From NCBI GenBank assembly GCA_025201365.1, contig JAIXMF010000009.1, positions 806,001-870,000 on the forward strand: a stretch of DNA of 64,000 nt. Reading direction: 5' to 3'. This stretch comes from Syncephalis plumigaleata. Taxonomy: Eukaryota > Zoopagomycota > Zoopagomycetes > Zoopagales > Piptocephalidaceae. Under the pieces are notes generated by a model, which was not told the origin of the DNA, ran no database searches, and saw only the letters and a program-made list of their open reading frames with translations. Shown here one piece after another: positions 3,417-58,782 of the stretch (position 1 is its first letter; each line of letters opens with the position of its first letter). The position numbers were made by a program, and so were the translations under genes.

Positions 3417-5776
3417 ATGTCGGTCGTCGCTGCAATGACAACTAATGCCAGCTCGTCTTCTACCGCCACCGCCACTACTGCGGAGGTTACGAGCGCCGAG
3501 ACGGCCACCACCTTCATCGATACTATAATTGGAGACAATAAGGGGTTATCTGCACTGCATTTGGACAATGCAGACGAATGTGGCAATACCACGCCGATAG
3601 TAAATATCATCAAGGACGACACGGTCTATGGCGAGGATTCAGACGATGAAAGTCTTCCCGTAACACCGGATCCTGGAGATACTAGTGCTGAACTCGATTC
3701 ACATCTACCACTACCTAATGCATCGAGCACTTCATTGTCATTAGACGCGGAAACGGAATCACTATCGTCAACTGGTGACCAGAGCGGGAAACGACGTCGT
3801 CGAGCGGCTAACCCACCACCTCGTCCATCAGACGGACTAGCTACTCCCGATGAGCTATTACCAACCAGTCGACCTAGCAGCGGTATACGCCGATCTCTGC
3901 TGGACCTCCCGCATAATGTTAGCTCGCACATTGTTAACCTAATGCCACGTCCGATGTTAACACGATCACGTAGTGAGGGCGCTGGTCGATTTCGTCTTCG
4001 TAGTTCTCGTTCGCAAACGGATCTACGTACCGTTTATGGCCCGCAAGCGAACAAACCGATACGTGTTCCTAGTGCCAATGTCGTTACCGGATCACGACGT
4101 AGCGGTCAATCGAAACGTCGGAGTAAGCAGGGTGCATCTAGCGGATCAATTGGCGGTCGACCAGAGGCGCAGACTAACGGTAATGACGATGATCCCGCTG
4201 AAGTTGAACGCGATCAATACGGATTCCGTAAGGGCAATCAGTATTTATCACTCGAGGATATTCATAAATTCGAGGCTCAGTATGAACAGGTACTTCAACG
4301 ACGACAAGAGAAATGGACGGCATTACTGCGCGAATATGAGAATGGTCAGTTACCGCCACTCTCCTCGAAGGTGAAACGATTTATTCGTAAGGGAGTACCC
4401 GCAAATATACGTGGTCAAGTAGGTAGAATTTATAATATAGTAAATGAATCAACCTACTTACTTACGTATATATATATATTCAATTAGTGTTGGTTGCATT
4501 ATAGCGGTGCTGCCGATTTGATGAAGCGAAATCAAGGACGCTACCATCAATTGGTCGCACTCTCAGCTGATCGTAAATATCGCGAATGTCGCGACTTGAT
4601 TGAACGTGGTGAGTATTTATTCCGGATTAAGGAGAGTAATCGATCCAACTAATGATGAAAATAGATTTGCATAGAACATTCCCGGAAAACATACGATTTA
4701 CATCGACAGCGGTGAAGGCGCCCTCCTCGAACGGTAGTATCACCGTTCCAACATCGAATGAACGACGTGATCGACGTCCCAGTCCGGTAACTTCGCGATT
4801 TAGACAGCAACCAGCTAGTTCGACTGTACCCATACTACAACAATTGCGTCGTGTGTTGACAGCATTCGCCGTACGTTGTCCGAGTGTCGGCTATTGCCAA
4901 TCGCTTAACTACGTCGCCGGTCTGTTCTTACTATTTATGTCAGAGGAGGAAGCATTCTGGATGTTATGCACGGTCGTTGAACAAATCATGCCTGAAGGAA
5001 TGTACGGCGTGAAAATGGAGGGAGTAACGGTGGATCAAGACGTACTTATGCAACTACTCGAGGATCGTATGCCATCCATTTATTATCGACTGAATCGCGA
5101 TGAAGAGGAAGTCGGTGCACCACCCATTACATTCGTCACTAGTCATTGGTTCCTTACACTATTCGTTGATGTATTACCAGTCGAGGTAAGTAATACTAGG
5201 ATGATATAGATATATGTATGTATGTATATTATGATTACTAACACTATGAAATGTTCTAGTGTAATCTACGCGTATGGGATTGTCTATTCCTGTAAGTATA
5301 CGATAACAATAACGAGTAAATTACTAACAACAGTATCGATCATCATCATTATTATTATTACTACTGCACTATAGCGAGGGAAGTGAAGTACTCTTCCGTG
5401 TTGCATTAACACTATTCAAGATGCATGAACAACAAATCTGTAGTATTGATGATTCACTAGAACTATTCCAATACTTACAGAATATGCCGAAACGAATGGT
5501 GGACTGTCATTCATTGATGGAGGTAATTGATATGAACATAATAGCTACTTAACTAGAGTGTAATACTCATCATATACACATGTAATACTATGATTGTAGA
5601 ATTGTTTCCGCAAATACGCTAGTCTCTCTCATGTCGGTGCCAAAGATCTAGAACGTCGACGAAAAGCAGCTCGTGATGCAATGCGACGTCGTGTATCAAA
5701 TGCAACAAATGTACCCGAAAAACTACCAACTCGCAATAAGATCGGTCATGATTTCGGTTCATTTTTCCGTAATTAA
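3417..5776 (+). CDS. TBC-domain Rab GTPase-activating protein
   Basis: Six exons give 666 residues: 3417-4418, 4488-4608, 4665-5185, 5260-5291, 5375-5522 and 5600-5776. The first about 260 residues are Ser/Thr-rich and basic, likely disordered. The TBC domain begins near the exon 1 end (RRGVPANIRGQ-type entry, then CWLHYSGAADLM). It contains the arginine-finger block IERDLHRTFPEN, assembled across an intron, and the glutamine-finger block YCQSLNYVAG, so both catalytic fingers are present. The late block with HWFLTLFVDVLPVE and a conserved Trp-Asp pair follows. Known proteins of this family speed GTP hydrolysis on Rab proteins and control membrane traffic. It is closest in feel to the Gyp/GRTP1 type. 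Which Rab it acts on cannot be read from sequence. Confidence 0.9.
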
Positions 5777-37845: not shown

Positions 37846-40346
37846 ACAGGATTTCTCCTTCTGATTATCGTTGTTAGCCTTTTGTTTCTACGAATAAGTA
37901 ATGATTATGATAATACGTATCTATGTGAAAGCTATAGCATCACGGATAAGTTGTTCTTCGTTGCCCTTCTTTTCTTGAACGTTTAGAAGTAATGGCACTT
38001 TGATGTAATTGTGTTGGAACACCTTTCCATTGCAAGACTGAGAATAATCTGAATAACATTCAGACATGCTGCCATATCCCGATTCCATACACGATACTCG
38101 AATCATTTACCTTTCATGTCATCTTTACAATTCTGATGACATATCATTACTATCTATTCTGAATATTAATCAATGATATTACTACTATTTTACTATGCTG
38201 TGCAATGGAATATATCTTTATCGTAATGTGACAAACACTAGGCATGATTGTGTCAATGATGATAATCAGTAAATCAACTATAGTAGCAATTGAGACATCA
38301 ACAGATGTGTGATCTTCCATACATAAATGACGTTATTATGTAAGACTCATATCGCGTCATTATTACATTCTGCTTGACTGAAGCTTGTTATGCATCCTCT
38401 CGCACTCCATTATAAAGATGCACTGAACAAAGCAAGCACCAATATTGTCTTTATTCTTTTTCATCATGTCTACTTCTACTCCTACTGAAATGCCGGTAAT
38501 CCAACTCATCTTGTAGATTACTAGACTGTCTGAATTGTCTTCCATTTCATGACCAGTGTGCTTCCGTAGTCTACTTGGTCATATCGAATTAGTGCGTTTA
38601 TCAGCATGTTGTCGCTCGTTAAAACAGTATTCGAAATGATAGACATTATGGCAAGCACTATACATAGGGATTTCTTATCAGGACCTATTATATTAAAGAA
38701 ATGGTTTCGTATTATGGTGTGTACGCACGGATGTCAACAATCCATGTACATCGGATAAACGAGCCGATCTACTAGAGAAGGTGGACTGGTACAACACATA
38801 TCGTCGACGAGTGAGCACCGAAAGTAATTGGCGATTTGGACGATGCAAGACCACCCATATCGATATGGAAGCTGATAAGAATGGAAAATATTATCGCGAA
38901 GGTGTTAATGATAATCGTATCATTATCGCACAACAAGATTGCTCAGGCGAAACATCAATCTATAATTATACTTTAGAATATTTGCCGCATTCAAATCTTA
39001 GATCAAGCAATAACATTGTGTATAACAGTACATTATCCACATCGCCAAATGTTATTTTGCTGGATATTGTAATGAAGATGAGTATACTTATGTCCTGGGT
39101 GATCATTACATAGCCGTATTCCTATAGAGATTGAAGGTACCAACTATAATGTAAAAATACTTACTCGCAAGCATGGTGTGTTTTCATTACATTCGATGTT
39201 CCAGTACAATATCGAGTGATGACAGTCGGGGAAAATGGGTATTATTAGTGCATGAATCACGTGTGTTAGACCTATTTGCGCCAGCTTGTATAGGTAAGTT
39301 AGTAATTGTACAATGATGCAATATAACTAGTACTAATAATCAATGGATTTAGTCAATGTAATGGTATTCGATATAGATAACAGTATCATGTGTCCAGGAA
39401 GCATTGATGATACATGGAATGCAGTCCATTTCTACAAAACAACCAACAATAGAGCAATAGTATACACAGTAAGAATAGTCAAAGATAATACAGATCGTAT
39501 TGAATGGGCATTATACGAGTTCTCGAGCAATAATCCTGTTGTACAACTGCGAAATGGCTGGTTTCAACTACCTGAAGGGATTAGGGCTGTGTCAATATTT
39601 GCTCGTAATTCATATGATTTGCATATGATCATAGACTTACGTGGCTTTCTTGGCTATAGTTTATACATAATGCATAGTGTAGCATCCGATAATCAAAGCC
39701 ATACTCCACGTAATTGCTACACTTTAACTGCCCGACATATACCTACTCCATTATTAAGGGCTGGATGCGATTATGTATTATTCAGCTCAACAAAAGTATG
39801 GACAGACTTATCCTACAATAACGATCAAGTATTACAAATCCGGGTACAACTTCCATCAGACATATTATTGGAGATCTCTATATTTTTATTGTAAAAGATC
39901 ATAATGATATAGAAAATCGATGGCTTGTAGACATCAATACAAAAGAAACAATACGTACATTGGAAGCACCAAATACGGACTTTAAGTTGCCTAATTATGC
40001 ACTGGCTGGCATGCTATGTGATCCCAATGACAGATATGCGCTAATAATACATGAATATGGTGAGCTATAACAAGCATCAATAAACCATGTTATATTGCTA
40101 TCGATCCATTAGAACGAGCAATATGTTTTATTAACTACAATGTGAATTAATAATGAGTAATAGCTATTATTTATTATCATCATTGCAATATATGATATCG
40201 CGATCATTAACATCTCCTCAACTGCTAGGCCATGACAACTACTCAATAATAATAGTAATGCGATAATGGTATTAACAATTGTGTTAATCTATTTATTAAT
40301 ATACACGAAAGTTATAGGCCAATGTTAATCAGTTGAAAAACCCTGT
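37846..40346 (+). mobile_element. Inverted-repeat DNA element, copy 1, carrying an F-box gene
   Basis: About 2.5 kb, sharing its whole length with an inverted copy at 52001-54551 and its two ends with a remnant at 57136-57368. The left end starts ACAGGATTTCTCCTTCTGAT. The right end, read inward from the other strand, starts ACAGGGTTTTTCAACTGATT. So the ends form imperfect inverted repeats of about 30 bp. Inside, from left to right: a minus-strand fragment resembling the C-terminus of TnpB/Fanzor proteins (about 37921-38160), a shared promoter block, then the F-box gene. I could not find a clean target-site duplication. This copy has about 50 fewer bases than copy 2, mostly as scattered one-base gaps. 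Confidence 0.7.
38466..40070 (+). pseudogene. F-box protein gene, copy 1, frame interrupted
   Basis: Same gene as 52281-53911, carried by the element. From the ATG at 38466 the reading frame breaks after 16 codons, where copy 2 continues smoothly. Intact-looking blocks reappear in changing frames (38781-39113, 39343-39894) and match copy 2 closely (WYNTYRRRVSTESNWRFGRCKTTHID; VFDIDNSIMCPGSID). Most differences are single missing bases, as in the conserved genes on either side. It is therefore open whether this is a dead copy or an intact gene in poorly corrected sequence. Some substitutions near 38610-38680 suggest real divergence as well. Confidence 0.65.
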
Positions 40347-43127: not shown

Positions 43128-44611
<1,484 letters not shown>

Positions 44612-52280: not shown

Positions 52281-53911
52281 TTATAGTTCACCATATTCAT
52301 GGAATACTTGCATACTCATGTCACGGAGACCACATAGCATGCCAGCCAGTGCATAATCAGGCAAGTTAAAGTCCGTATTTGGTGTTTCCAATGTACGTAT
52401 TATTTCCTTTGTATTGATGTCTATAAGCAATTGACTTATTGTATCATTACGATCATATGTAATAAAAATATAGAGATATCCAATAACATGTCTGATGAGA
52501 GTGGCACCCGGCATTTGTAATACTTGATCCTCATTGTAGGATAAGTCTGCCCATACTTCTGTTGATCTGAAACTGAGTGTGAGATGTTTGCATCCAGCCC
52601 TTAACAATGGAGTAGGTATATGTCGGGCAGTCATAGTGTAGCAATTACGTGGAGTATGGCTTTGACCACTGGATGCCACGCTATGCATTATGTATAAACT
52701 ATCATTTGAATTGTCACATAATCTGATGATTATATACGAATCGTATGAGTTATGCACCTTTAGCCACGTATACCTTATCTTCTCAGGTAAATGAAACCAG
52801 CCATTTCGCAATTGTACAACAGGATTATTGCTCGAGAATTGATATAGTGCCCATTCAATACGATCCACATCATCTTTGACTTCGACTAGTCTTGCCGTGT
52901 ATACTATTGCTGTATTGTTGGTTGTTTTGTAGAAATGAGTTGCATCCCATATGCCATCAATGCTTCCTGGACACATAATACTATTATCTATATCGAACAC
53001 CATTGCATTGACTATTCCATTGATTATTAGTACTAGTTATATTGCATCATTGTATAGTTATCACACTTACTTTTGCAACTTAGCGAATCATTGACTAGCG
53101 CATGTGATATATGTTCTAATGACACCCATTTCCCCTTAATTGTCTTCACTTGATATTGTACTGGAACATCGAATGTAGTGAAAACATCGCCATGTCTGCG
53201 AGTAAGTATTTTTACATTATACTTAGGCTTGTTGCTGATTCCCCTAGGAGCTACAGCTATGTAATGATCACCCGTAACATAAAAATACTTAATTTCATTA
53301 CCAATATCCAATAAAATAGCATTTGGCGATATGGATAACGTACTGTTATACACAATATTGTTGCTTGATATAAGATTTGAATGGGGCAAATGTTGTAAAA
53401 TATAAGTATGACTCTGTGTTCCGTCTGGGCAATTTTGCTGTATGATAACTAAATTATTACATCCGCCTGTGCGATAACAATCTCCATCCTTGTCCTGTTC
53501 AGTATCGATATGGGTGGTCTTGCATCGTCCAAATCGCCAATTATTCTCGGTGCTCGCTCGTCGACGATATGTGTTGTACCAGTCCACATTCTCTAGTAGA
53601 TCGGCTCGTTTATCCGATGTACATGGATTGTTGACATCTGTGCGTACACACCATAACACAAAATCCATTTCTTTAGCATAATAGGGTCCTGATAAGAAAT
53701 CACTATGGTATAGTTGTTGCCATAATACTTTATCATTTCGAATACTGCTTGTTAATGAGCGACAACATGCTGATAAACGCACTAATTCGATATGACCAAG
53801 TAGACTACGGAAGACACACTGGTCATGAAATGGAAGACAATTCAGACAGTCTAGTAATCTACAAGATGAGTTGGGATTACTCGGCATTTCTGTAGGAGTA
53901 GAAGTAGACAT
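52281..53911 (-). CDS. F-box protein carried by the repeat element, intact copy
   Basis: Two exons (53911-53071 and 53011-52281) give 523 residues. Residues about 18-60 form an F-box (LLDCLNCLPFHDQCVFRSLLGHIELVRLSACCRSLTSSI), the Skp1-binding module of SCF ubiquitin ligases. The remainder is a beta-rich-looking region with repeated aromatic and Asn/Asp patterns (FGRCKTTHID, VYNSTLSISPNAILLDIGN, VFDIDNSIMCPGSID, RIEWALYQFSSNNPVVQLRNGWF). It could be a propeller-like substrate domain, though I cannot assign it. It differs from copy 1 by substitutions that mostly keep the protein, which suggests selection in at least one copy. The promoter lies inside the element. Confidence 0.8.
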
Positions 53912-54239
53912 GATGAAAAAGAATAAAGGACAATATTGGTGCTTGCTTTGTTCAGTGCATCTTTATAATGGAGTGCGAGAGGATGCACATAACAAGCTTC
54001 AATCAAGCAGAATGTAAAAATGACGCGATATGAGTCTTACATAATAACGTCATTTATGTATGGAAGATCACACATCTGTTAGATGTCTCAATCACTACTA
54101 TAGTTGATTTACTCGATTGATCATCATTGACACAATCATATCTAGTTGTTAGTCAACATTACGATTAAAGATATATTCCATTGCACAGCATAGTAAAATA
54201 GTAGTAATATCATTGATTAATATTCAGAAATAGATAGTA

Positions 54240-54449
54240 ATGATATGTCATCAGAATTGTAAAGATGACATGAATGGTAAAGGATTCGAGTATCGTGTAT
54301 GGAATCGGGATATGGCAGCATGTCTGAATGTTATTCAGATTATTCTCAGTCTTCGTAATGGAAATGGTGTTCCAACACAACTACATCAAAGTGCCATTAC
54401 TTCTAAACGTTCAAGAAATGAAGGACAACAAAAAACAACTCATCCGTGA
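54240..54449 (+). pseudogene. TnpB/Fanzor-like C-terminal fragment
   Basis: A 69-codon frame containing CHQNCKDD, then RVWNRDMAACLNVIQIILSL. The order Cys-x-x-x-x-Cys then W-x-R-D-x-x-A-A-x-x-N is how the last RuvC segment of IS605 TnpB and eukaryotic Fanzor nucleases usually reads (RDxNAAxN). The nuclease parts that should come before it are absent, since the F-box gene's promoter lies there instead. The copy in element 1 (minus strand, about 37921-38160) shows the same block. I treat it as a left-over 3' end of a Fanzor-like gene. Short motif only, so the assignment is tentative. Confidence 0.45.
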
Positions 54450-54914
54450 TGCTATCGCTACTCACATCTAAATACGCAAGTTTTATTGTCATTACTATTA
54501 TTTATTCGTAGAAACAAAAAATTAACTGCGTTAATTAGGAGGAGAATCTGATAAAATGGATCGATAAACACACATACACGCATGCTATTGTTGGTAATTG
54601 CATTAATACACTGTCATTATCATGATATGGATTGATTTACATTCAGCTATACTCATATACATGATGTTCAATACAATGATAATAGAATAGAATCAACCAT
54701 GATGGTTGTAATAGGTGTACGCGTCATTATTGATGGTGTATTCTGAAATGATGATGATGTGTAGATTCAGACAATTGACAGAGCATGCGGTTACACGACA
54801 TGACAGACATTCACCATTCATCACTGATTGGTACTAATCTGCTTGGTGTACTCCCTACAAGCAATGGATTTACAACGCCGCTATATCAATATCCGCCATC
54901 ATCATCATCTCGCC

Positions 54915-54920
54915 TATAAA
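54915..54920 (+). promoter_or_regulatory. TATA box of the microexon gene
   Basis: TATAAA in a C-rich surrounding, 185 bp before the start codon at 55105. The interval between is pyrimidine-rich without upstream long frames, as in leaders of other genes in this window. Confidence 0.5.
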
Positions 54921-55104
54921 TCGAGCACTTTTGACACATTCAACTTCTCATTTTCATACTCGCTCTTCTACTCTATTCTAGCTACTACTATCACTACTCG
55001 TATATACCACTGCCTTATACTCTCGTTCTATTCTACTCTCACTACTTTTTACTCTCGTTCTAGTCTGTTTATCTGTCTATCCACTCCACTAGGCCAACAT
55101 CAAC

Positions 55105-57006
55105 ATGAAGTTCTCTGCCGTTATCGCTATTGCTGTCGCCGTCGTCGCTGTCGCCAGTCTGGTCGCCGTTGAAGCCAAGCCCACTAGGATCCGCCGTCGT
55201 GGTATGTCACAGGAACAACAAGAACAATAATGATAATGGACTTTAGCTGACTCATTAATGATTGCTCGATAGCTGGCAAGTCTACCATCTGACCACAATG
55301 TCCCGTGTATTAACCATGCTGTATCACTATTTGTACATTTATTCCGTAAATAGTTGGTATGTTGTCAGTGTAATAATGATCCGATTCAATGTGCTAACTG
55401 TAATACAATCATGCTCAATCCTCATGTGCGTGTGTGTGTGTCTATTCCGATAGTCGAACGTAGGTTTGCCGATAAATAAATAAACCACCTGACATGCTAC
55501 TAATCATATTGTCATATCGACACGGTACATGGATCAATAGGCCGTAAGTAGTAGTCATGCCATGCTGACCATATCATACAATGAGCTAACACCATCCAAA
55601 TGGAACTATTCCACAAATAGGTGGTACGTATGACTACTATGGCCGTATCAGTTGATGTACTAATTGTAGTCTATTGTTTCATTGTCTACCGATGATTATC
55701 GATAGCTCGTAAGTTTATGTGCATTAAATGGCTGTTTTGACGTGCTAATCACACTATAATGTTTATTCCACATATTAATCTGTTAGCAAATCCTCGTAAG
55801 CTAGTCTATTGACCGTAACAAGCACTATGCTAATCGTAATATAAATCAAAACCATACGTGAATGCATTTTCAAGTGCCCGTAAGTTACCATTCTAGCTGG
55901 AATGAGTGAGGCGCTAACCACAATATGACATACGATTCGCATATGTTCCTGTATGATAGGATGTAAGTCAATACTTCTAATCTTAATGAATAGTGTGCTA
56001 ATTATGCTATGGCAACTAATTCATATGTTTTCGTTGATAGTCTGTAAGTTATTATTTCAGTAATAAGCTATGGATGTACTAATAACAAGATGGCATACAA
56101 TTCGCATATGTTCATGTATGATAGAAAGTAAATTACCATTCTGGCTAGAATGGATACTGTACTAACTACAATATGACACGCCATCCACGTATGTCCCTGT
56201 ATGATAGGCTGTAAGTCATCACTCTGGCCGTAATTAGTAATGTATTGATCATAATATGATACGCGATTCACATATGTCCTTGTATGATAGTCTGTAAGTT
56301 ACCATCTTGACTGAATGAGTGATGTACTGATTATACTATGGCAACTAATCCACATATGCTTGTATGATAGCAAGTAAGTTACCATTCTGACTGTAATGAA
56401 TGGTTGTGCTAACTACAACGTGGTATATGTTCCTATATGATAGCAAGTAAGTTACCATTCTGGCTGTAATACATGGTTGTGCTAATCGCACTATGACGCA
56501 TGGTCCATATGTTCCTATATGATAGGGAGTAAGTTCACACTCCAATTATAATGGATAGGTGTACTAATCACGCCAGGCCACATAACTCGCATGTCTGCGC
56601 ATAATAGCAAGTAAGTAATCATTCTGACTGCAATGTATGGTTGCACTGATATTAATACGGCATATAATTTTCATATGTCCCTGTATGATAGGGAGTAAGT
56701 TACCATTTCAATCGTCATCTATGCGAGACTGATTATAATACGATATACATCATCTGAATAACAGCATCCTTAAGCAGTAAGTAATAATTCACAATAATAA
56801 TTTCAATACTAATCCATTATGATTACAGAGCAAGACAAGGACATCATCAAGTAAATATTATAGGTATTCAAGTCAAGAATGGATTGGCGCAAGACCCTTT
56901 AGTGTCCATGCCATTCAAGAAGTCATTATTCCTTGGTACAACAACAACAACAAGCATATCTACAAAATCATTCAATCATTTATTAAATAAATATGTCGTA
57001 TTTTAA
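55105..57006 (+). CDS. Microexon gene for a small secreted basic peptide precursor
   Basis: Exon 1 (55105-55201) encodes a signal peptide (MKFSAVIAIAVAVVAVASLV, then AVEA as likely cleavage site) and a basic end KPTRIRRR. It is followed by a series of tiny exons, each framed by a TAG-type acceptor and a GTAAGT-type donor: ctg 55273, ttg 55354, tcgaac 55454, gcc 55541, gtg 55621, ctc 55706, caaatcctc 55787, tgccc 55875, gat 55960, tct 56041, aaa 56125, gct 56208, tct 56291, caa 56371, caa 56444, gga 56526, caa 56608, gga 56692 and ca 56775. The last exon is at 56829. Joined, they read on without a stop as AVVERRAPNPLP, DSKASQQGQGQ and a 58-codon tail. If the 2-nt exon is skipped, the last exon stays open in another frame to 56990, so the end is uncertain. 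RRR and ERR are possible Kex2-type processing sites. The second intron starts with GC. Confidence 0.7.
55202..56828 (+). repeat. Tandem array of related introns, period about 80 nt
   Basis: About twenty intron units of 51-97 nt, most 77-82, follow one another with only 2-9 nt between. Several share most of their sequence: GTAAGTTACCATTCTG, then TGTAATGAATGG, then GTGCTAACTAC or GTACTAATNAC as a branch site at a fixed distance, then CATATGTTCCTGTATGATAG at the end. Units from 55880 to 56691 are most alike. Earlier ones share only the splice sites and branch. The array evidently grew by tandem duplication of one intron plus its three-base exon. The AT-rich units have no coding frame of their own. 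Confidence 0.85.
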
Positions 57007-57135
57007 TCATTACATCAATGGACGATATGTGTTGTTAATACCACGTAAAAGTAGTCAGTATCATCAAAGAGTCTTTCCTAATGGAATGATGATGATTAAT
57101 GGAAAAGTGAATCGTATTTGCTAATATCCTCTTTT

Positions 57136-57368
57136 ACAGGACTTTTCCTTATGATTAACGTCGTTAGCTTTTTGTTTATGAATAATAGCTATGATGATAG
57201 GGCTTGCGTGTTTAGATGTGGAAGCAATAACCCTCAACTGCTAGAATCATGACAACTACTCAATAATAACAGCAATGCGATAATGGTGTTAACTATTGCG
57301 CATAGTTATTTATTAATAAACAGCAAAAGTTAAAGACTAACAATGTTAACTGGTTGAAAAAACGCTGT
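57136..57368 (+). mobile_element. Remnant of the F-box-carrying element, copy 3
   Basis: 233 bp, beginning ACAGGACTTTTCCTTATGAT and ending GTTGAAAAAACGCTGT. The left about 95 bp match the left end of copies 1 and 2, and the remainder matches their right end, starting from CTCAACTGCTAG. The whole centre with the F-box gene is missing. Its two ends, read inward, agree with each other for about 30 bp. It could be a deletion derivative able to move in trans, or debris. Confidence 0.65.
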
Positions 57369-57469
57369 ACTTTTTTCTGACTTGTTTCGTTTGTCATTCG
57401 TATTGTTTGGTCATGTCGTTAGATCATTTATTACCGTAACTATTAGAAGAGACGATTAACTACGAGGAA

Positions 57470-58782
57470 ATGGATACAGACACTAGTGACAATGTTGTAG
57501 ATAGATGCATGACACGAAAGGAGCGTCGTTTACACGCTAAACTAGTACGTCGACGCAATGAGATTCATTGCTCGTTAGCTTCAAATACCGGTCAACCTAT
57601 ATCGACCATTATCTCGAATGTACCCACACGTATACTCTGTCTGTTGAATGCAGCATCGGGTGGTGTGGCATCGGTGACCTATGAAGAACTAGAGGCTACG
57701 CTAAAGCAATATCATGGATATATGGCAATACAAATGACATTAGGCAAGGTAAATGCATTGCATGATCATATGGCATACCATTTATTGACTATCTCGAGTG
57801 TAGCCATGTTCATTCGCTATATTTGATACGGCAGAGAATGCAACATCTGCTCGAGTAGCATTAGACGGGAAGATTAGTCCATTATTATGCAAGGGAAAGG
57901 GCAAGCTACTTCTTGTGGATTACGCTGTTGGACACAATCTAGCATCTACGAATACACTAGTTGACAAACCAATTATAAACGAAAACAATGTGATAATGCG
58001 ATCATTCGAGCATACAACAACATCTACCATTAATATAGAAGAAGTACCAGGACTCACACTAGTGACCGAGTACATTACACGCGATGAAGAACTAATGCTA
58101 TTGAATGAATTTGCACCTAACAATGAGATAGCAACTAATGACTGGACACAAGTACAAGAACGATATGTGGTAAGTGAACATATATATTGCATGATGTATA
58201 CCGCTCTAATCATTAATACTCGTACACGACTATCACGATTAGCAACATTATGGCCATCTATTTGATTATGATACCAATCGTGTACGAAACACTCAGAAGA
58301 ATATACCCGAATGTATTGAACAACTACTAGATCGTTTACCTGATGTATGGCCACGTCCCAATCAACTTACCGTCTCCTATTATCCAACAGGATCGGGTAT
58401 ACCACCACATGTTGACTCGCATCAAGCATTCGGCGACACCGTTTATTCATTTAGTTTAGGCAACCCGATTATGATGGAGTTACGACCGACTACCGCGGCT
58501 ATCAAGTCTAATCTAGCATCATCATCAACATCATCATCGCGTACGACACTCATTATTGATCTACCACCACGATCAGTATTGGTAATGCGTGAGGATGCAC
58601 GCTATCTATGGGAGCATAGTATTCGAGCACGTCATTCAGATGTATTGCCTAATGGTCAATTACGTCCACGTCGTGTACGCGTTTCATTTACGATGCGACC
58701 GATCAATGAACGCGGTCGATGTAATTGTCCCTGGCCGGAAGTGTGTCAATTGCGTAATAAAGGATTACCAGCTCGTGACTAA
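57470..58782 (+). CDS. ALKBH8: ALKBH8-like tRNA/AlkB oxygenase
   Basis: Three exons (57470-57748, 57804-58169, 58243-58782) give 394 residues. An RNA-recognition-like N-terminal part is visible (VPTRILCLLNAASGGV; CSFAIFDTAENATSARVALDGK). The 2-oxoglutarate/Fe(II) oxygenase domain follows: LTLVTEYITRDEE, QHYGHLFDY, YYPTGSGIPPHVDSHQAFG with the iron-binding His-x-Asp, YLWEHSIRAR with the distal His, and RRVRVSFTMRP with the Arg that holds 2-oxoglutarate. The closing CNCPWPEVC is a zinc-like Cys cluster typical of ALKBH8. That enzyme hydroxylates the wobble uridine side chain of certain tRNAs. The animal protein carries a C-terminal methyltransferase (a Trm9 relative). Here the protein stops right after the Cys cluster, so that domain must be a separate protein if present. 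Confidence 0.9.

Follow-up and report, generated by a model that had tools for sequence, protein, structure and literature searches.

The window analysed here is a 64,000-nucleotide (nt) stretch of the genome of Syncephalis plumigaleata (GenBank assembly GCA_025201365.1, contig JAIXMF010000009.1, positions 806,001 to 870,000), and the element in question is a gene on its plus strand, at positions 55105 to 57006, in which a signal-peptide-like first exon is followed by a long series of very short exons, here called a ladder. Sequence analysis indicates that it is very likely a protein-coding member of a large S. plumigaleata family of short secreted precursor peptides, the variable part of which is encoded mostly by single-codon exons. 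The fungal source supposed in an original prediction, made from the letters of the window, is correct (Zoopagales, Piptocephalidaceae).

The micro-exon ladder of the window gene

The exon series was obtained with a Viterbi search that scores donor, branch point, acceptor and intron length and uses no coding information. Run from the donor of exon 1, this frame-blind search returns 19 micro-exons in 55273-56776, with lengths in order of 3, 3, 6, 3, 3, 3, 9 and 5 nt, ten of 3 nt, and a final 12 nt, and preceded by introns of 70-97 nt (about 80 nt). The proposal of some nineteen mostly 3-nt exons therefore stands, 15 of the 19 being exactly 3 nt, although the acceptor and donor pairs are not uniformly perfect as was claimed: TAG-nnn-GTAAGT is exact in 11 of these 15, and the other four have the donors GCAAGT, GTATGT, GTACGT and GTAAAT. 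The spliced product reads MKFSAVIAIAVAVVAVASLVAVEAKPTRIRRRAVVERRAPNPLPDSKASQQGQGHP and then a stop; it stays open when read in the signal-peptide frame, and the ordered reading continues through the change of phase to a TAA at 56771-56773 in the final micro-exon, as had been foreseen. The predicted secreted peptide is APNPLPDSKASQQGQGHP, and MKFSAVIAIAVAVVAVASLVAVEA resembles a signal peptide by eye only. Coordinates are collected in Table 1.

Table 1. Exons and last intron of the ladder gene (positions in the window)
Feature	Position	Strand	Remarks
Exon 1	55105..55201	+	Start codon; signal-peptide-like MKFSAVIAIAVAVVAVASLVAVEA; KPTRIRRR; ends in phase 1; donor GTATGT
Micro-exon CTG	55273..55275	+	Phase 1; donor GCAAGT; blind splice search
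Micro-exon TTG	55354..55356	+	Donor GTATGT; next intron (97 nt) is the weakest-scored; blind splice search
6-nt micro-exon TCGAAC	55454..55459	+	Blind splice search
Micro-exon GCC	55541..55543	+	Blind splice search
Micro-exon GTG	55621..55623	+	Blind splice search
Micro-exon CTC	55706..55708	+	With the preceding five gives AVVERRA, in one piece in paralog C130
9-nt micro-exon CAAATCCTC	55787..55795	+	Blind splice search; CTC CAAATACTC joined in uninterrupted paralog L081
5-nt micro-exon TGCCC	55875..55879	+	Acceptor CAAG; shifts phase 1 to phase 0
Ten single-codon exons	55960..56694	+	Phase 0; peptide DSKASQQGQG; introns 70-81 nt, fitting the profile of ladder introns that includes them; starts GAT 55960, TCT 56041, AAA 56125, GCT 56208, TCT 56291, CAA 56371, CAA 56444, GGA 56526, CAA 56608, GGA 56692
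12-nt exon CATCCTTAAGCA	56765..56776	+	Contains stop TAA 56771-56773
Last intron, 52 nt	56777..56828	+	In the 3' untranslated part; junction TAAGCA/AGCAAGACAAGG fused in L081
Last exon, 3' untranslated	56829..57006	+	End approximate (from the original prediction); homologous to the uninterrupted 3' part of L081

The blind scan preferred an acceptor at 56863 for the last intron; we place the start of the last exon at 56829, since L081, an uninterrupted paralog described below, is fused at that position. Of the gene structure first proposed the ladder is retained, the coding part ending at 56773. The last exon also holds, by eye, an open frame (56829-56990, SQEWIGARPFSVHAIQEVIIPWYNNNN) similar to the tail of NCBI model P0002, and matches to this tail recur across the genome, many of them containing an open frame some 53 amino acids (aa) long. 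Omission of the 12-nt stop exon would, again by eye, fuse this frame in phase, and the frame is either an optional C-terminus or a conserved 3' end. P0002 was considered as a spliced ladder product and rejected, as it maps to one almost uninterrupted place.

The splice model used is a softer one that was set by hand after the window ladder, its hand-read product and the paralog pattern matches had been seen, and so was not a blind choice; it was then left unchanged for the later gene models. A strict model trained on exact GTAAGT units was dropped because it missed weak donors and broke the frame. Per-intron penalties of 9 and 11 concur, and at 13 the weak third intron is dropped and the frame broken. 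When the whole 64-kilobase window is scanned without a fixed start, two 3-nt exons outside the ladder are found on the plus strand and one on the minus strand, and exons of 15 nt or less form runs of up to 19 on the plus strand (the ladder) and of up to 2 on the minus strand. Forty Markov versions of 54001-58000 gave at most one 3-nt exon and runs of no more than 4. Across the genome there are 931 tandem TAG-NNN-GTAAGT pairs spaced 55-85 nt apart, against 2 for the reversed pattern, and the counts are 0 for 4-nt exons (2 reversed) and 1 for 2-nt exons (0 reversed).

The window also contains RPT3 (26S proteasome subunit 6B; 43354-44199, best PDB match at an E-value of 7.9e-141), in which a homology-supported intron of 89 nt has a GTAAGT donor and an AAG acceptor; the ladder signals are therefore similar to those of at least one ordinary intron. 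Two related reading frames containing MVFDIDNSIMCPGSID are present at 52281-53911 (minus strand) and 39343-39894 (plus strand), one of which adjoins a frame with an F-box-like start by eye; together they make up a local gene family. Rfam and tRNA scans of the window gave no matches.

A family of ladder genes and the probable coding of the triplets

Exon 1 has at least 150 matches in the genome, the window copy included (scoring covered 150 of 173 candidates, which makes the count a lower bound), and what was first described as a single gene is thus one of a family. We examined 34 copies together with their flanks, a non-random set picked for likeness to the window copy and for location on contig C1; many gene models of the other copies stop where the examined sequence stops. 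An exon-1 donor and a ladder are present in 28 of the 34, and six lack the donor. Leaving out three duplicates and two ladders with runs of fewer than four 3-nt exons gives 23 distinct ladders. Of these, 20 have the single-codon run in phase 0, and 19 of the 20 can be read from the start codon to the end of the run without meeting a stop. The exons before the run vary between genes (3+9+5, 3+9+2, 3+3+5, 3+3+6+5 and longer series), and the frame is still kept.

The 27 ladders that remain when one exact duplicate is dropped comprise 458 exons, 377 of them 3 nt long, and 458 introns with a median of 80 nt; GTAAGT is the donor in 316, and the acceptors are TAG (347), CAG (85) and AAG (26). A YTRAY branch-point motif, mostly TACTAAT or TACTAAC, is present in 217 of 227 training introns, and in 127 of the training introns 42 nt follow the branch A. 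Nine of the 28 ladders, including that of the window, have an exon that ends in a stop plus GCA or GCG, and many of the others reach the end of the sequence first. The products are diverse (HHGHHGGHH, LLGALGGDVQMTPPGL, CIKISNRCCYENSD, CEWYENGLCCHVVG, CPPIHWKDGKTYEMHFENGKGCMFSNG), and the spaced cysteines of several suggest folded peptides. None of ten products scanned has a Pfam match at or above the cut-off, and the best E-value against PDB is only 0.32, for the C362 product.

Two pairs of loci are nearly identical, C329:653023 and C359:12773 differing at 18 of 1285 intron bases and C338:49023 and C1:2456795 at 23 of 1359; perhaps both pairs are haplotypes kept separate in the assembly. A similar first exon is also seen in ten JGI/ENA proteins, one of them from ENA (P0019, P0020, P0022-P0027, P0029, P0030), some of which end as though read into intron 1; P0027 contains RRAVVQRRAPP uninterrupted. 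The relatives whose first exons appeared in this protein search perhaps share single-codon splicing.

The triplets read as coding exons, as originally proposed, and neither as recursive splice sites nor as fossil repeats, on account of the rarity of stops among them and the phase-0 position of most runs, with further backing from uninterrupted paralogs and from a second gene family that has an uninterrupted paralog of its own. One such paralog, C130:10791-11051 (100% identical to NCBI P0015), is a single open frame that has no stops and reads IRRAVVERRAPRA, including IRRAVVERRAP; its AVVERRAP is spread over eight exons in the window gene. P0015 was rejected as RNA evidence from a spliced ladder; it is an uninterrupted gene and hence better evidence. 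In L081 (C223:1333480), CTC CAAATACTC AATTC and the codons after it are in one piece, divisible as 3, 9, 5, 3, 3 and so on in the manner of the ladders. From the end of exon 1 onward L081 and the spliced window gene agree at 17 of 19 bases. The stop region of L081, TAAGCAAACAAGACAAGGACATCATCAAG, equals the spliced TAAGCA junction of the window gene at 28 of 29 bases. A plausible scenario is that C130 and L081 are intron-loss copies that arose through a reverse-transcribed message, in which case they would be fossils of the spliced RNA. The region upstream of L081 is partly like that of the window gene (85% over 345 bases), which would fit replacement in place.

Genome-wide, the triplet between GATAG and GTAAGT is TGG in 27 cases and TAG in 1, and TAY or TGY in 37 and TAA or TGA in 3, TAA or TGA occurring 10 times in the reversed control. 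TAA and TGA make an overlapping donor-like string, so that their rarity could partly reflect splicing; the comparison of TGG with TAG is unaffected by this overlap, and triplets ending in AG are present in the runs (AAG 8, GAG 7).

A second, unrelated gene at C1:1417405-1411368 (minus strand), with no signal peptide by eye, has 73 exons of which 61 are 3 nt. One of its frames runs for 117 codons without a stop, and the other two contain 6 and 14. Close to its end lies an 8-nt exon that may disrupt the frame; two exons of 27 nt read PSYNHIPEE and PSYNHTPEE. The product matches an uninterrupted paralog at C318:1455923-1456237 (BLASTP E-value 8e-13, 39 of 101 residues identical), with an alignment score of 130 against no more than 80 in 2000 shuffles of exon order. 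Fifteen residues from fourteen micro-exons, LDLFGTIAFEKKQKD, align with LDLFGAAAFEKRQKD at a score of 63, and 2000 shuffles do not exceed 35. A search outside the S. plumigaleata genome gave no relatives of the C318 paralog at an E-value of 1 or less. In NCBI model P0009 (BDF22DRAFT_742100, C318) this uninterrupted paralog is run together with a peptide-family first exon that has not been spliced, a fusion that is probably an annotation artefact. The same architecture in a second unrelated gene means that a genome-level process in S. plumigaleata is possible.

Irregular copies, ladder growth and alternative readings

Several observations weigh against coding by the triplets. The frame of the window gene is by itself weak evidence, since one of the two other frames has just one stop, at its first codon (the remaining frame has 3). 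In the 23 runs there is no stop in 255 in-frame codons, and the two shifted frames, of 232 codons each, contain 1 and 34; position-specific base frequencies lead one to expect only 4.1 in 255 (P(0)=0.016), so that this test is modest and the genome-wide count of triplets is the stronger one. Purifying selection is undetected in nine genes that share early exons (divergence 0.087 in exons and 0.062 in introns). Pairwise intron identity, at 0.71 versus 0.64 for shuffled sequences (nine genes, other scoring), is barely above its baseline, and homology of the introns is therefore judged on profile scores. NCBI model P0001 speaks for the ladders in following most of the single-codon exons of C362:262196, but omits four that the blind search finds; it is probably an ab initio model, and we treat it as such and not as RNA evidence because a read aligner would be unlikely to place such exons. 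In the second ladder, the first single-codon block scores 43 and the best of 2000 shuffles 45. Searching the genome with a 52-residue piece of P0008 gave no uninterrupted match; this fits a ladder, but an empty search of this kind proves little.

Individual copies depart from the pattern as well. Three of the 23 runs lie outside phase 0, all in phase 2: C1:1848082, where an alternative acceptor would restore the frame; C367, which has a 20-nt exon with a TAA; and C16, in which the acceptor is missing at the phase-switch exon. C16:4210 and C89:8782 lack the acceptor before this exon at the same spot, AAAATGGA replacing CAAG. C226 has a 2-nt exon followed by TGA, and C329:653023 is in phase 0, yet its blind model leaves 92 nt unspliced, with 6 stops in them. 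In the 35-exon ladder of C1:1707181, a 2-nt exon (AA) at +2214 lies between good splice sites and breaks the frame; after it the codons are sensible in phase 0 and the end is a normal TAA, and the AA exon may be skipped or the copy decayed.

It could be argued from these frame breaks in several paralogs, from the very large number of copies and from the similar divergence of early exons and introns that the exons are real and that just a few genes work, the window copy being, like many more, a decayed copy of these that is not expressed. We consider this unlikely, as the window copy is intact in frame, start, donor series and stop, and 19 of the 23 distinct ladders are both open and in phase 0 through the run.

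The introns themselves point to how ladders grow. An 81-nt profile aligned from family-ladder introns, those of the window included, has 6-37 hits per family-ladder stretch and 34 in the second gene, and no hits in seven isolated pattern matches on C1; in the window outside the ladder there is one weak hit (5292-5346, E-value 0.031), and the best in the reversed window has an E-value of 0.15. Between genes intron identity averages 0.64, and pairs more than 0.8 identical make up 1.1% between genes as opposed to 7.5-8.8% at lags of 1-4 within genes. In 8 of 24 genes the two introns most alike lie at a lag of 1-4 and have an identity of 0.95-1.00; examples are C1:1743917 (lag 2, 0.95 identical, peptide KAKAKA) and C329:726486 (lag 4, 1.00 identical, peptide HHGHHGGHH), and the two introns most alike in the window gene are neighbours, with an identity of 0.82. 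Near-identical introns at such short lags indicate that ladders probably grow by tandem duplication of units that consist of an intron plus a codon.

An introner-like element inserted repeatedly between codons would also account for one profile that fits the ladder introns and, with its 34 hits, an unrelated second ladder; according to the parts of PMC4457414 consulted, introner-like elements occur in fungi, and tandem duplication within a gene makes up less than 1% of single intron gains in one fungus. The single weak profile hit elsewhere in the window indicates that its ordinary genes have not been invaded, and nearly identical introns no more than four units apart are, as noted, found in a third of the genes compared. 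To insert at each codon boundary along tens of codons, an element would have to follow a targeting rule. We know of no element with such a rule, and we regard insertion as a rather improbable alternative to tandem duplication.

Very improbable is a single long intron removed by recursive splicing, with the triplets as non-coding ratchet points that are joined briefly and then lost, or never joined. The same signals would suffice, and an acceptor and donor 3 nt apart are much like a ratchet point; in the portions of PMC8605326 drawn on, however, ratchet points have juxtaposed acceptor and donor, whereas the spacer of the ladder is 3 nt and neither 2 nor 4, the triplets avoid stops, the frame is kept in most of the copies examined and the uninterrupted paralogs match. 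Finally, an unused exon-1 donor and a 41-residue unspliced peptide ending GMSQEQQEQ, the ladder being untranslated, is scarcely credible even though the window frame is open through the donor, many exon-1 matches contain a short open frame some 44 aa long, and the gene call P0006 and NCBI model P0009 have such ends, for it leaves unexplained the rarity of stops, the keeping of the frame and the paralogs that continue as RR-AVVERRAP or RR-APN.

Proposed splicing mechanism and known micro-exon systems

The factors that recognise 3' and 5' splice sites can hardly both occupy 3 nt. We therefore infer that the single-codon exons are joined stepwise through intron definition. Each intron would be recognised across itself, and its removal would join one codon to the upstream exon and so set that codon directly before the next donor, splicing thereby advancing step by step like a ratchet, with one residue gained in each cycle. 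Tandem duplication of a unit of about 83 base pairs (intron plus codon) would add codons in frame, and loss of a unit would remove one. The secreted peptide would then be cleaved at RR and RRR, which we take to be the motif of a Kex2-type protease, by such an enzyme. The variable part could in this way change residue by residue in evolution, and perhaps also by exon skipping.

S. plumigaleata is an obligate parasite of other fungi, and in such an organism the product would most likely serve as an effector or as a peptide toxin directed at the host fungus. Ladder donors and acceptors are mostly alike and the units mostly frame-neutral, so many donors could join many later acceptors; whether each gene would thus hold a combinatorial in-frame library of peptides, made over 10 to 60 or so single-codon splicing steps and with the intron plus its codon as the unit of mutation, seems to us evenly balanced.

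If the coding reading is true, single residues could be gained and lost by duplication of introns in DNA, and possibly by choice in splicing. The lower limit of exon size would here be tested in its hardest setting, with tens of consecutive single-codon exons, and the ladders would provide a natural system for the study of intron definition and the order of splicing. They also suggest that routine annotation and read mapping are likely to handle a large family of secreted peptides badly in S. plumigaleata.

Among the papers that searches of the open-access literature listed, none was seen to report runs of single-codon exons or micro-exons in Syncephalis; the one paper found there that names S. 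plumigaleata (PMC7865070) does so, in the part consulted, as a genome used for binning. The comparisons that follow likewise draw on portions of the papers cited. Isolated exons of 3 nt and 1 nt are spliced in in animals and in Arabidopsis APC11 (PMC4674806, PMC8042270); these are single tiny exons, whereas the ladders have tens in a row. Recursive splicing resembles the ladders in an acceptor placed beside a donor and in stepwise removal (PMC8605326), and differs in that the ladder has one coding codon between the two. Fungal introner-like elements and introns that arise by tandem duplication (PMC4457414, PMC4974935) are similar in the multiplication of near-identical introns; unlike introner-like elements, the copied unit of the ladder includes a codon and forms arrays within a gene.

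In the general sense, a micro-exon gene has a series of exons no longer than about 30 nt, mostly multiples of three, that code for a secreted protein; the window gene has 19 exons of this size. The micro-exon genes (MEGs) of Schistosoma are alike in that they form a multigene family of secreted, variable parasite proteins with many tiny exons, mostly multiples of three. In the body of PMC10526429, 35 genes have 10-20 very short exons of 6-81 bp (3-81 in its abstract), mostly 15 bp, with introns of 0.1-5 kb; the exons of the ladders are mostly 3 nt and their median intron is 80 nt. The ladders are thus unlike these MEGs in their runs of exactly one codon, in introns of about 80 nt that belong to one sequence family, and in being fungal. 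The bicycle genes of aphids are likewise candidate effectors with many micro-exons, about 17 exons on average, and a gene related to them has more than 100 micro-exons (PMC9168663). Nearly all internal exons of bicycle genes are in phase 2 according to that paper, in contrast to the phase 0 of 20 of 23 single-codon runs in the ladders, and the passages of it consulted make no mention of single-codon runs. A separate category would be defensible if RNA shows inclusion codon by codon. Compared with known micro-exon genes the ladders are an extreme, and the Schistosoma MEGs and the bicycle genes come closest to them.

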